Positions 16,243 to 21,751 of a DNA stretch of 48,736 bases are shown here, piece by piece. Within the stretch, counting starts at the first letter, position 1. Each line of letters opens with the position of its first letter. This DNA is from Cellulomonas sp. (GTDB lineage Bacteria > Actinomycetota > Actinomycetes > Actinomycetales > Cellulomonadaceae): NCBI GenBank assembly GCA_031178625.1, contig JAPSIR010000004.1:1-48736 (forward strand). The letters run 5' to 3'. Made by a program: the position numbers and the translations under genes. The notes below the pieces were generated by a model, which was not told where the DNA came from, did not search any database, and was given only the letters and a program-made list of their open reading frames with translations.

Positions 16243-17205
16243 TCAGGCGTCGGCGACGACCACCGCGAGCAGCCCGGGGCCCGCGTGGGCGCCGAGGACC
16301 GCACCCGCGCCGGCGACGACCACCTCGACCGCCTCGTGCGCACCGTCGGCCAGGCGCCCGGCCAGGTCCTGCGCGGGGCCGACGTCGCCGGCGTGGTGCA
16401 CGCCGATGCGGACCGCGCCGCGACCCGCGACGTCCGCGGCCGCCACCTGCTCGATCCGCTCGCGCGCCGCGCGCCGCGTGCGGACCTTGTCGGCCACGAC
16501 GACGCGGCCGTCCTGCACGGCCAGCAGCGGGCGCAGCCCGAGGACCGTGCCGAGCGCCGCCGCGGGCGCGCTGAGCCGTCCCCCGCGCCGCAGGTGCTCG
16601 AGCGACTCGACGAGGAACCACGTGCGCGTGCCCGCCGCCGTCGCGGCCGCCACCTCGGCGACGCGCGTGACGTCGGGCCACACGGGCGCGGGTCCGCGTC
16701 GTCGCCCGGGCCGGCCGCCGACGGGCCGGCGGCGCCGTGCCCGGGCGTCGTCCGGCGCGGCGTCCGGCACCGGTGCGCCGGCGCAGCGGGCCGCCGCGAG
16801 CGCCGCGAAGCCCAGGCCGAGCGCGACCGTGCCGGAGTCGACCACGCGCACCGGCACGGGGCTCACCGTGGCGGCGGTCCGGGCCGAGCGCACCGTGCCG
16901 GACATCTCCCCCGACAGGTGCACGGAGACGATCTCGCGCGCACCGGCCGCGGCGGCCCGCTCGTAGGCCGCGGCGAAGGCCGACGGCGGCGGCTGCGACG
17001 TCGTGACGCGGGCGCCGCGCTCGAGCGCGCGCAGCAGCTGGGCGGGCGTGACGTCGATGCCCTCGACGTGCCGCGCGCCGTCGATGGTCACGTCGAGCGG
17101 CACGACCGTCAGCCCCGCCGCCGCCGCGAGGTCGGGCGGCAGGGCCGACGTCGAGTCCGTGACGACCGCGACCCGGGGCGGGTGCGGCGCGGGCGCGCCG
17201 CTCAG
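16243..17205 (-). CDS. DegV-family fatty-acid-binding protein, apparent CTG start
   Basis: 320 aa as drawn. The track starts at 17103 and so omits the DegV N-terminus. The frame continues upstream with [17 protein letters not shown], the canonical DegV opening with its DSTS motif. No ATG, GTG or TTG exists in that extension; the first plausible initiator is a CTG at 17205 that overlaps the leuS stop as CTGA, mimicking the ATGA/GTGA couplings elsewhere in the window. Later blocks are [13 protein letters not shown] and [15 protein letters not shown]. An Arg-rich insert of about 30 residues ([13 protein letters not shown]) separates the two lobes. DegV proteins bind fatty acids for phospholipid synthesis. 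Confidence 0.8.
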
Positions 17206-20171
17206 GCGGGCACCACGTTGACGAGCTTGGGTGCCCGCACGATGACGGTGCGCACGCCGCGGCCGTCGAGCGCGCGCTGCACGCCCGCGTCGGCGAGTGC
17301 GATCTCACGGAGCTCGTCGTCGCCGACGGACGGGGACACCTCGGCCCGACCGCGGACCTTGCCGGCGACCTGGAGGACGCACGTCACCGTCTCCTCGACC
17401 AGGTACGCCGGGTCCGCCTCCGGGAACCGCGCGTGCACGACCGAGCGGTCGTGGCCCAGGCGCTGCCACAGCTCGTCGGCGATGTGCGGCGCGACGGGCG
17501 CCGTCATCACGACGAGCGCCTCGACCGCGGCGCGCGGCGCGCGGTCCAGCGTCGTCAGGTGGTTGTTGAGGACGATCAGCTTGGCGATGGCGGTGTTGAT
17601 GCGCATCGCCTCCATGTCGTCCCGCACGTCCGCGACCGTGCGGTGCAGCAGCCGGAGCGTCTCGGTCGACGGCGCGTCGTCGGACACGACGAGCTCGCCG
17701 GTCCGCTCGTCGACGACGTTGCGCCACAGCCGCTGCAGGAAGCGCTGCGCCCCGACGACCGCGCGCGTCTCCCACGGGCGCGACAGGTCCAGCGGGCCCA
17801 TCGACATCTCGTAGACGCGCAGGGTGTCGGCGCCGTACGCCTCGTACATCTCGTCGGGCGAGACGACGTTCTTCAGCGACTTGCCGATCTTCCCGTACTC
17901 GCGGTGCGCGGGCTCGCCCTGGTAGCTGAAGCCGGTCGGGGACGCCTCGTCCTCGACGACCTCCGCCGCCGGGACGTGCACGCCGCGGTCGTCGGTGTAC
18001 GCGTACGCCTGGATGTAGCCCTGGTTGAAGAGCTTGTGGAAGGGCTCCGCGCTGCGCACGTGCCCCAGGTCGTACAGCACCTTGTGCCAGAAGCGCGCGT
18101 ACAGCAGGTGCAGGACGGCGTGCTCGACGCCGCCCACGTACAGGTCGACGCCACCGACCGAGCCGGCCTGCTGGTGGCCGTGGCCCGGGCCGAGCCAGTA
18201 CTGCTCCAGCTCCGGGTCCACGACCGCGTCCGCGGACCGCGGGTCCAGGTAGCGCAGGTGGTACCAGCAGGAGCCCGCCCAGTTCGGCATGGTGTTGGCG
18301 TCGCGGCGGTAGCGCTTGCGGCCGTCGCCCAGGTCGAGCTCGACGTGCAGCCAGTCCTCGTTGCGCCCCAGCGGCGGCTCCGGCTCGGAGTCCGCGTCGT
18401 CGGGCGCGTAGGTGCGCGGCGAGAAGTCCGGTACGTCCGGCAGCTCGACGGGGAGGGCCGAGTCGGGCAGCGCGATGGGCGTGTCGTCCTCGTCGTAGAC
18501 GATCGGGAACGGCTCGCCCCAGTACCGCTGGCGGCTGAACAGCCAGTCGCGCAGGCGGTACGTGACCGTCTTCTCCCCCGCGCCGCGCTCCGCCAGCCAC
18601 GCGACGACGCGCTCCTTGGCGTCCGCGACGGTCAGGCCGTTCAGGTCGAGCTCGTCGTTCGCGGAGTTGACGACGACGCCGTCGCCGGTCCGCGCACCCT
18701 CCGGCGCGTCGTCGGGCGCGTCGATCGTGTGGACGACGGGCAGCTCGAACGCCTGGGCGAACGCGAAGTCGCGCTCGTCACCGCCGGGCACCGCCATGAT
18801 CGCGCCCGTGCCGTAGCCCATGAGCACGTAGTCGGCCGTGAACACCGGCAGCAGCGCGCCGTTGACGGGGTTGACGGCCAGGTGGCCGGTGAACACGCCG
18901 GTCTTGCGGCCCGCGTCCTGCTGGCGCTCGACGGCGGTCTTCGCGGCCGCCTCGGCCCGGTACGCCGCGACGGCGTCGGCGGGCGCGGCGTGGCCGCCGG
19001 TCCACACGTCGTGCGTGCCGTCGGGCCAGGCTGCGGGCACCTCGTCCAGCAGCGGGTGCTCGGGGGCGACGACCATGAACGTCGCGCCGAACAACGTGTC
19101 GGGGCGCGTCGTGAACACCTCGACGGCCTCGCCGCCCTGCACCGCGAAGCGCACGCGGGCACCCGTCGAGCGGCCGATCCAGTGCCGCTGCATCGAGCGG
19201 ACCTTCTCGGGCCAGTCGATGTGGTCGAGGTCGTCCGTCAGGCGGTCGGCGTACGCGGTGATGCGCATGTTCCACTGGCGCAGGTTGCGCTGGAACACCG
19301 GGAAGTTGCCGCGCTCGGACCGGCCGTCCGCGGTGACCTCCTCGTTCGCCAGCACGGTGCCCAGGCCGGGGGCCCAGTTGACGGGCGTCTCGGAGAGGTA
19401 CGCCAGGCGGCGGCTGTCGACGACGCGGCGGCGCGCCGTCGCGTCCAGCTCGGCCCACGTCGCGCCGGCGGGCACGCCCGGGATGCCGTCGGGCACGGGA
19501 CGCACGCCGCGCTCGAGCTCGTCGACCAGCTCCGCGACGGGGCGCGCGCGCCCGCGGCCGCCGTCCGGGCGGACCGCGTCCTCGTCGTACCAGGCGCCGA
19601 ACACCTGCAGGAAGATCCACTGCGTCCAGCGGACGTAGTCGGGGTCGATCGTCGCGAACGTCCGGCGCGGGTCGTGCGCCAGGCCCAGGCGGCGCAGCTG
19701 GCGCTGCATGATCGCGATGTTCGCCTCGGTGGTCGTGCGCGGGTGCTGCCCGGTCTGCACGGCGTACTGCTCGGCGGGCAGGCCGAACGCGTCGAAGCCC
19801 AGTGCGTGCAGGACGTTGTCCCCGCACATGCGCCGGTACCGGCCGACGACGTCGGTCGCGATGTACCCCAGCGGGTGGCCCACGTGCAGGCCCGCGCCCG
19901 AGGGGTACGGGAACATGTCCATCACGTAGAACGGCCGCGCCGCCGGGTCGGCGTGGTTGCCCTCGCCGTCGGTGAGGTCGCCGACGGGGTTCGGCGTGAA
20001 GTAGGTGCCGCGACGCTCCCACTCGTCCTGCCAGCGCAGCTCGATCTGCTCGGCCAGCGCGGCGGTGTACCGGAAGGGGACGTCGTCGGGGGTGCTGCCC
20101 GGGGTTGTCGTACCGGAAGTTGTCGTACCGGGAGTGGTCGTACCGGGGGTGGTGCTGGGGGCCTGGCTCAT
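17202..20171 (-). CDS. leuS: Leucyl-tRNA synthetase
   Basis: 989 aa. Class I synthetase with HIGH-type [12 protein letters not shown], an editing CP1 domain ([13 protein letters not shown]), and KIGKSLKN in place of KMSKS, as usual in actinobacterial LeuRS. N-terminal extension of about 28 residues made of TTTPG repeats. ATG at 20171 with SD AAGGA 8 nt upstream. The 115 nt before it contain a Leu-rich leader ORF and a helix able to sequester this SD (see separate entries), so expression is probably controlled by leucyl-tRNA charging. degV follows with a 4-nt overlap. Confidence 0.97.
20098..20155 (-). repeat. 15-bp tandem repeat in the leuS 5' coding region
   Basis: About 3.5 copies of CCCGGTACGACAACT (with single-base changes) encode the PGTTT units at the LeuRS N-terminus. 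The repeat lies outside the catalytic fold. Confidence 0.8.
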
Positions 20172-20176
20172 GGTCG

Positions 20177-20267
20177 TCCTTCGCCGCGGTCTCGTCGGGG
20201 GTCAGCCGGCACGGCGCACACCGCGACGAGTGACCGGCCTAGGGGGTCTCGCCGCGGCGTCGAAGGA
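20177..20267 (-). promoter_or_regulatory. Candidate leuS translational attenuator (SD-sequestering helix)
   Basis: mRNA segment UCCUUCG-ACG-CCGCGG (20267-20252, inside the leader ORF) can pair with CCGCGG-CGAAGGA (20189-20177), forming 13 bp with one 3-nt bulge. The second segment contains the whole leuS SD. Nested inside is a hairpin, GCCGGUCAC/GUGCCGGC (20238-20205, 8 bp, one bulge). A ribosome paused at the Leu codons would break the outer helix and free the SD. There is no U-tract, so control would act on translation rather than on termination. Confidence 0.6.
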
Positions 20268-20286
20268 GGAGCGTCCTCACCAGCAC
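20239..20286 (-). CDS. Leu-rich leader peptide of leuS (15 codons, not in ORF track)
   Basis: Codons GTG CTG GTG AGG ACG CTC CTC CTT CGA CGC CGC GGC GAG ACC CCC TAG give MLVRTLLLRRRGETP: four Leu in 15 residues, three in a row, all three readable by one tRNA-Leu (anticodon GAG). CTT is a rare codon in such GC-rich DNA. Its use here also supplies the U residues that pair with the leuS SD. The GTG lies 6 nt after a TAAGGT -10, so the leader would be translated from the very 5' end of the transcript. Stop 67 nt before the leuS ATG. Confidence 0.65.
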   Translation of the reverse strand: MLVRTLLLRRRGETP

Positions 20287-20292
20287 GGGACG

Positions 20293-20323
20293 ACCTTACC
20301 CCCGCCCCCGCCGGCCCGGACAA
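20293..20323 (-). promoter_or_regulatory. leuS promoter
   Basis: Minus strand TTGTCC (20323-20318), 19-nt spacer, TAAGGT (20298-20293); the transcript would begin at or next to the leader GTG at 20286. Confidence 0.5.
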
Positions 20324-20352
20324 CCGAGCGGGGCCGCGGCCACCCGGGCGGC

Positions 20353-21684
20353 TCATGCCCGTGCGGGGACCGTGGCGCGGCGGTCCGGCACCTCGTCGGG
20401 CACGGCGTCCGGGACGGCGTCCGGCACCTCGTCGGGCACGCCGTCCGGCGCGGTGTCCTGCACAGCGCGCGGCACGGCACCCGGCACGGCACCCGGCGCA
20501 GGGCCGCGGCCCACGGTGAGGACGACCACCAGCCCGAGCGCCGTGAGCCCGGCGCCGACCCACGCGGGTGCGAGCAGGCCCCACCCGCCCGCGATGACGA
20601 GGCCGCCGAGGAACGCGCCGGCGGCGTTGCCGAGGTTGAGCGCCGAGTGGCACAGCGCCGCGCCGAGCGACGGCGCGGCGGGCGAGACGTCCATGAGCCG
20701 CGTCTGCAGCGCGAGGCCGAGCACCTGCGACGTGACGCCGAGCAGCACGAGCGCGGGCACGACCGCCGCCGGCCACGGCCCGACGAGCGCGATGACGACG
20801 AGCACGACGATGGTGGCGACCATGCCGCCGACGACGGTGCCGAGCACGGACCGGTCGGCGAGGCGCCCGCCGAGCAGCGTGCCGACCGTCATGCCGACGC
20901 CGTACAGCGCGAGCACGAACGGCACGGTCGTCACGGCGAGACCGCTCACGTCGGTGAGGAGCGGCTTGACGTAGGAGTAGACGGCGAACATGCCGCCGAA
21001 CCCGATCGCCCCCGCGCCGAACGCCACCCACAGCGGGCCGTTGCGCAGGGCGGCGAGCTCGCCGCGCACGGTCGCGTCGGCGGCCGCCGGGAGCGACGGC
21101 GTCCAGGCGCGCAGCGCGACGAGCGTCGCGAGGCCGATGCCGCCGACCGCGACGAACGCCCACCGCCAGCCGACGGCGTGCCCGACCACCGACGACAGCG
21201 GCACGCCGACCGCGCAGGCGACCGTGAGGCCGGCCATCATGGCCGACACCGCGCGGCCGCGGCGCTCGGGCCCGACGACGGCGGTGCCCACGACGGCCCC
21301 GACGCCGAAGAACGCGCCGTGCGGCAGCCCCGCCAGGAAGCGGGCGGCCACGAGCGTCTCGGCAGTGGGCGCGAACGCCGCGAGGACGTTGCCGACCGTG
21401 AACGCCGCCATGAGCAGGAGCAGGAGGCGACGGCGGTCGGTGCGGGCGCCGAGCGCGGCCAGCGTGGGGGCGCCGAGCACGACGCCGAGCGCGTACGCGG
21501 TGATCGCGTGGCCCGCGACCGGGATGGACACGTCGAGGTCCGTCGCGATCTCCGGCAGCAGGCCCATCGTGGCGAACTCGGTGGTGCCGATGCCGAAGCC
21601 GCCGAGGGCGAGCGCCAGCAGCGCCGTACGGGCACGCCGGGCGGAGGGGGCCGCGGCGGTGGCGGGCGGGGCGGTGACGGTCAC
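20353..21684 (-). CDS. MFS exporter of the DHA1/AraJ type
   Basis: 443 aa from the GTG at 21684; the track's GTG at 21723 would place a 16-bp palindrome inside the gene. Twelve hydrophobic segments. GGFGIGTTEFATMGLLPEIA at the first helix and ARTDRRRLLLLLM in loop 2-3 are typical of AraJ/YdhP-like drug or sugar effluxers. Substrate unknown. The cytosolic C-terminal tail is a run of VPDEVPDAVPDAVPDEVPD-like units. The palindrome CTCGAATCGATTCGAG 5 nt before the GTG suggests specific repression. Confidence 0.85.
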   Translation of the reverse strand: MTVTAPPATAAAPSARRARTALLALALGGFGIGTTEFATMGLLPEIATDLDVSIPVAGHAITAYALGVVLGAPTLAALGARTDRRRLLLLLMAAFTVGNVLAAFAPTAETLVAARFLAGLPHGAFFGVGAVVGTAVVGPERRGRAVSAMMAGLTVACAVGVPLSSVVGHAVGWRWAFVAVGGIGLATLVALRAWTPSLPAAADATVRGELAALRNGPLWVAFGAGAIGFGGMFAVYSYVKPLLTDVSGLAVTTVPFVLALYGVGMTVGTLLGGRLADRSVLGTVVGGMVATIVVLVVIALVGPWPAAVVPALVLLGVTSQVLGLALQTRLMDVSPAAPSLGAALCHSALNLGNAAGAFLGGLVIAGGWGLLAPAWVGAGLTALGLVVVLTVGRGPAPGAVPGAVPRAVQDTAPDGVPDEVPDAVPDAVPDEVPDRRATVPARA

Positions 21685-21689
21685 GCGAC

Positions 21690-21705
21690 CTCGAATCGAT
21701 TCGAG
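21690..21705. promoter_or_regulatory. Perfect 16-bp palindrome before the MFS gene
   Basis: CTCGAATCGATTCGAG, 5 nt upstream of the MFS GTG, with a partial third half-site (ATCGAG, 21711-21716) next to it. AT-rich centre in a GC-rich background. Candidate operator for a dimeric regulator, possibly the neighbouring DtxR/MntR protein or an unlinked TetR/MarR. Confidence 0.6.
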
Positions 21706-21751
21706 CACGGATCGAGGGGACACCGTCGGCCGCTCGGGGGATGAGGCCAGA

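Follow-up and report, generated by a model that had tools for sequence, protein, structure and literature searches.

The leuS leader of a small Cellulomonas clade is almost certainly a copy of the LEU element and likely a leucine-codon-sensing attenuator

In the window, the whole 48,736-nt stretch of Cellulomonas sp. contig JAPSIR010000004.1 analysed here, leuS is preceded by a leader which is, on sequence grounds, almost certainly a copy of the LEU element. This element was described upstream of leuA in most Actinobacteria by Seliverstov et al. (2005; PMC1262725), and in that description its parts are a leader ORF rich in Leu codons, a base stem formed between Leu codons and the Shine-Dalgarno (SD) sequence, a pseudoknot and an alternative hairpin. 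The features assigned at leuS are the following:

20318..20323 (-), -35-like TTGTCC, 19 nt before the -10-like hexamer, assigned by sequence comparison
20293..20298 (-), -10-like TAAGGT, 6 nt ahead of the leader GTG; a leaderless start is predicted
20167..20292 (-), LEU element, full match of the leuA-trained covariance model (104.2 bits, E 1.7e-20)
20239..20286 (-), leader ORF, VLVRTLLLRRRGETP and stop; frame and Leu run common to the relatives' leuS copies and to leuA leaders
20263..20271 (-), Leu run CTC CTC CTT, codons 6-8, from codon conservation in 71 leuA-type elements
20261..20267 (-), P1 5' arm UCCUUCG, within the Leu codons, from family structure and covariation
20248..20257 (-), P2 5' arm CCGCGGCGAG, from family structure and covariation
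20234..20239 (-), pseudoknot 5' arm GGCCGG, within the loop of P2 and sharing one base, the last, with the stop codon
20221..20230 (-), P2 3' arm CUCGUCGCGG, from family structure and covariation
20204..20209 (-), pseudoknot 3' arm CCGGCU, from family structure
20177..20183 (-), P1 3' arm CGAAGGA, containing the leuS SD sequence GAAGGA, from family structure and covariation
17202..20171 (-), leuS, leucine--tRNA ligase (TIGR00396.1, leuS_bact, NCBIfam; 860.6 bits vs a cut-off of 548.4)

The leader ORF starts with the GTG at 20286, comprises 15 codons, four of them Leu, and ends with the stop codon at 20241-20239; 67 nt separate it from the leuS ATG at 20171, which is led by the SD sequence at 20182-20177 (-). 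The sequence and coordinates given in the first-pass annotation for TAAGGT, the 6-nt spacer and the 15-codon ORF with CTC CTC CTT upstream of leuS were correct. The -35-like TTGTCC gave no match in a consensus promoter scan; its leuA counterpart is TTGCGG, with identical spacing. The LeuS protein of the window carries an N-terminal Thr/Pro/Gly-rich repeat (20171-20070) that is missing at the LeuS starts of genome G036 and of Cellulomonas telluris, and the gene upstream of leuS (20356-21723) resembles chloramphenicol-efflux-type MFS transporters, although below every NCBIfam cut-off (297.5 vs 400 bits).

The leader is real and not a product of chance because of its homology, namely the leuA copy and the match to a covariance model made from leuA leaders only (104.2 bits, E 1.7e-20), and not because of its predicted folding energy, which is ordinary (z -0.95; 34 of 200 shuffles as good). 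Chance pairing was rejected on the same decisive ground of homology. When the genome that contains the window (a 3.43-Mb draft, 79% complete) was searched at the DNA level, it returned one strong second copy, with 81% identity across query bases 1-125 of 141 (E 4.7e-26), which lay roughly 70 bp upstream of the match to leuA; over the genus such a search gave matches in 64 of 81 genomes. Leaders with a Leu-rich ORF were found at only 3 of the 79 leuS loci of the genus, those of the window, G036 and G051. In the relatives' leuS genes without the leader that were inspected, the GTG start follows a -10-like hexamer at a distance of a few bases. In a set of 80 named leuS loci, which overlaps the genus set, the element was present once, in Cellulomonas telluris CPCC 204705, and the 29 leuS loci of the phylum sample held no copy. 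The expected conservation in close relatives thus holds within one small clade, and the leader is absent from most of the genus.

The covariance model was trained on 46 distinct leuA leaders of the genus alone, and at leuS it scored 104.2 bits in the window, 99.6 in G036, 91.9 in G051 and 107.3 in C. telluris; besides the window, G036 and G051, the 79 leuS sources gave no match of at least 20 bits. In all three checkable genomes that carry a leuS copy, leuA keeps its own element. Counted over whole one-contig genomes, a single element is present in each of seven relatives, two are present in G036, and two together with a weak match (E 0.04) in G051. A tree of the elements unites the four leuS copies in one clade (support 100/98), nested in a group which otherwise consists of the leuA elements of related genomes, and the LeuS proteins of three copy-bearing species also form one clade (99); G051 was left out of the LeuS tree owing to its frameshifted leuS. 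This frameshift, at about codon 480 (L006, near 2916-2931) of a gene that is essential, in a one-contig genome, is likely a sequence error.

The matching stretch takes in the promoter: the promoters of the leuS leaders resemble those of leuA in the GGGGGTANGGTCG-like sequence around the -10 hexamer and, in most cases, in the -35 TTG, and not the CGTCGGTACGATT type found at the relatives' leuS. Exceptions are the leuS of G036, which is without the TTG, and that of G051, which departs at the -10 flank. The distance between leuA and leuS is about 39 to 53 kb in six one-contig genomes (G036, G051, G029, G049, G078 and G010). Since the leuS copies form one clade and the three LeuS proteins form one clade, a single copying event is the simplest reading; the ancestor of a small Cellulomonas clade probably acquired at leuS, in one event, a copy of the leuA cassette of promoter, leader and SD sequence. 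The cassette probably replaced a leuS start that followed its promoter immediately.

The structure conserved in the family consists of P1, which pairs the Leu codons with the SD sequence, P2, a helix of 11 pairs with the stop codon in its loop, and a pseudoknot of 6 bp. It agrees only in part with the earlier drawing of the leader, a 13-bp helix of UCCUUCG(ACG)CCGCGG with CCGCGGCGAAGGA. The complementarity exists, with a 3-nt bulge, but the CCGCGG part belongs to the 5' arm of P2, of which 10 pairs are formed at leuS, and the conserved helix between Leu codons and SD is UCCUUCG/CGAAGGA plus two pairs past a mismatch. The nested helix as first described also differs from the family structure: a nested CUCGUCG/CGACGAG hairpin competes with P2. 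The 13-bp fold may be an alternative conformer of the leader, as its computed energy of -51.6 kcal/mol compares with -49.8 kcal/mol for the family structure, the energy of the pseudoknot being uncounted.

The family was described from 71 elements drawn from the order; leuA was located downstream of 70, and the remaining one ends at a contig edge. Covariation in the stems is seen in them: 91.1% of the cells pair and 13 pairs change on both sides, in a model-fitted alignment that favours the structure, and none of 500 shuffles reaches any of five measures of stem covariation, again with the alignment fitted to the model. P2 and the pseudoknot are nearly invariant among the 46 leuA leaders; in the pseudoknot 96.7% of the cells are paired, and it is mostly invariant and thus provides little covariation evidence. 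Within the genus, an arm-swap test of P1 was marginal: between 1177 and 1538 of 20000 permutations did as well.

At the three positions of the run, Leu is encoded in 70, 71 and 71 of the 71 elements, with synonymous changes, while the following codon is free. Codon 1 of the run is CTC in 41 elements, CTG in 17, CTT in 10, CTA, TTG and another codon in one each; codon 2 is CTC in 50, CTT in 18 and CTG in three; codon 3 is CTT in 69 and CTC in two. Only 2 of the 689 Leu codons counted in 28 of the window's ORFs are CTT, so codon 3 would be kept for SD pairing or as a slow codon. The Leu run CUCCUCCUU contains what we take to be the anti-SD core of 16S rRNA, so the Leu codons could serve as sensor and lock together. 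The comparison within the family bears out that both the Leu codons and the helix they form with the SD sequence are conserved features, and the conserved Leu run with the covarying stems favours codon-sensing translational attenuation. The leader start lies directly behind a -10-like TANNNT hexamer in 45 of 53 rows (8 rows were left unresolved by the script); the script by design returns a distance from this start to the Leu run that is divisible by three, and this distance is hence uninformative.

It could be argued that the LEU element is the site of a protein, and that leuS entered the regulon of this protein through the copied site. The near invariance of P2 and the pseudoknot would suit such a site, a co-occurring protein was reported in the 2005 paper, and S. 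coelicolor mutants in the Leu codons were reported there not to fit attenuation, on which account the authors set codon sensing aside for LEU elements (PMC1262725). These mutants argue against simple codon sensing at leuA. However, the codons stay Leu through synonymous change, even codon 1, which is mostly outside P1, LEU-like elements before leuB-like genes carry Ile/Val/Leu codons, and the leader start follows the hexamer directly in the rows cited above. We consider the protein site unlikely.

Codon sensing by a translational attenuator would operate at leuS as follows. With charged Leu-tRNA, the ribosome would reach the stop codon in the P2 loop and free the Leu codons, which would pair with the leuS SD sequence in P1, so that together with P2 and the pseudoknot the SD would be locked. 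If Leu-tRNA were uncharged, a ribosome stalled at CUC CUC CUU would cover the 5' arm of P1 and leave the SD open, and more LeuRS would be made. That the leuS element works by such stalling on Leu codons is, in our view, likely. When the first 31 nt of the window element were covered in the folding calculation, the unpaired probability of the SD rose from 0.18 to 0.53, and with a ribosome at the stop codon it was 0.05. With a uniform footprint the stall opens the SD in 41 of 46 leuA copies and in 2 of 4 leuS copies; the SD of G051 is exposed (0.95) even in the free leader. The gain upon stalling is small relative to that of shuffled leaders (0.11 observed and 0.03 shuffled), with 39% of the shuffles giving a gain as large.

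This mixed folding support would also agree with a passenger, a copied block that only gives leuS a stronger promoter and SD and whose leader regulates no longer. In the same direction point the replacement of the first Leu of the run by Phe in 2 of 4 leuS leaders and the strength of P1, which in each of three genomes compared is lower at leuS than at leuA (-10.3 vs -14.6, -8.3 vs -11.0 and -8.3 vs -12.7 kcal/mol); each of the four leuS copies has lost one inner P1 pair. The leader has nevertheless been maintained. Compared between the four species, the leader ORFs show 92-100% identity and the non-coding stretches up to the leuS start 90-96%, far above the 61-77% at leuS four-fold sites, and judged by these identities the leuS copy is under purifying selection. 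All four copies retain seven contiguous P1 pairs and 10 of the 11 P2 pairs, and the pseudoknot arms GGCCGG/CCGGCU are present in the window, G036 and G051 copies as well as in L155 (C. telluris). Loss of regulation is thus quite improbable, somewhat more so than the protein site. For a translational attenuator, the weaker P1 at leuS suggests a leakier lock, which would be in keeping with an essential gene.

Control by transcription attenuation, either intrinsic or dependent on Rho, along the lines proposed for leuS of Streptomyces, where a leaderless Leu-rich leader is accompanied by a terminator (PMC1262725, PMC8079986), is very improbable here, since a terminator-like site is absent at 20100-20400 and the leader is homologous to the leuA type and not to the Streptomyces leuS leader MRAVRLLLSEPR; the S. 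lividans leader of the leuA type is reported to be without a typical terminator (PMC8079986). The first reading of the leader as a device without terminator or T-box held on both points: no intrinsic-terminator-like site was found in that interval and no credible Rfam match at the window, where the only scan match up to E 5 was a CRISPR repeat (E 4.3). At seven leuA leaders Rfam gave four matches, all far below the gathering scores of their families.

The covariance model detected elements in 235 of the 297 genomes sampled from the order and in 92 of the 148 sampled from the class. The gene downstream was classified for part of these matches: 67 leuA, 8 leuC and 4 unassigned among 79 loci of the order sample, and 36 leuA, 2 leuC and 10 others, five of them leuB-like, among 48 loci of the class sample. 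Further leuS copies may exist among the genomes with a single match. One actinobacterial family, f19, has a second element before leuC in all eight genomes examined, leuC being identified by NCBIfam for one; these elements are in L261, L262, L263, L265, L266, L267, L268 and L270 (element from 1501), and two more genomes are represented by L384 and L386. LEU-like elements with Ile/Val/Leu codons precede leuB-like ORFs in five loci (L342, L355, L371, L373 and L379), about 100-180 nt upstream; an example of such a leader is MRHIFVLRCRGGAS, and the ORF of L355 is a 3-isopropylmalate dehydrogenase by NCBIfam. Weak model matches in L285 and L286 (32.0 and 30.5 bits), with the leaders MQRLSLLIASRGEVR and MTRRVLLIPGRDGVR, are possibly of ilv type. 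Unrelated short Leu-rich leaders lie directly behind a -10-like hexamer at other actinobacterial leuS genes (L308, L310, L311, L314, L221, L222 and L225), among them VRTGLLLTEPR, VRGLLLLIRPR, MSRIRSLLIQPR and the Streptomyces leader. A literature search by title and abstract, with subscription journals mostly outside its coverage, returned no description of a LEU element at leuS or leuC.

We lean slightly towards a broader reading, in which the element is a portable cassette for leucyl-tRNA charging. Its CUC/CUU codons would mimic the anti-SD, and the block would have moved from leuA to leuS, and to leuC elsewhere, with Ile/Val/Leu versions before leuB; at leuS it would have given a promoter-adjacent start a controllable SD. 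The 2005 paper that named the LEU element left its working open (PMC1262725). A natural transplant onto the gene for Leu-tRNA charging, with Leu codons kept through synonymous change, points to codon sensing. It also offers a clean test, as one device is present twice in one cell, on leucine synthesis and on leucine charging, and it suggests that a synthetase gene can acquire charging feedback without a T-box, by the copying of a ready-made cassette.

Among known systems, the actinobacterial ileS T-box is by analogy likewise a charging-dependent control of a synthetase at translation initiation (PMC1262725); however, a T-box reads the tRNA directly, and the window leader has no T-box match. 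The Streptomyces leuS attenuator, leuL2, shares with the window a leaderless, short, Leu-rich leader before leuS, but it has another leader sequence and a reported terminator hairpin with a U-run (PMC1262725, PMC8079986). An attenuator of this type was rejected in view of the different leader and the lack of such a hairpin and U-run before leuS, and the LEU model gave no match in two Streptomyces-type leuS loci, L311 and L314. The leader leuL1, MRFGLLLLSCRGEGL, of S. lividans leuA is of the same leader type (LLL..CRGE), leaderless by its mapped start and reported without a typical terminator (PMC8079986); it differs from the window leader in the gene served, leuA vs leuS. The LEU element itself has the same Leu-rich ORF, base stem, hairpin and pseudoknot, with homology in both sequence and covariance model. 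In the 2005 account it is given for leuA only, together with a look-alike internal to a transposase (PMC1262725), whereas the window copy, with its lost inner P1 pair, is located at leuS and has its sister copy at leuA, the location not being part of the structure.
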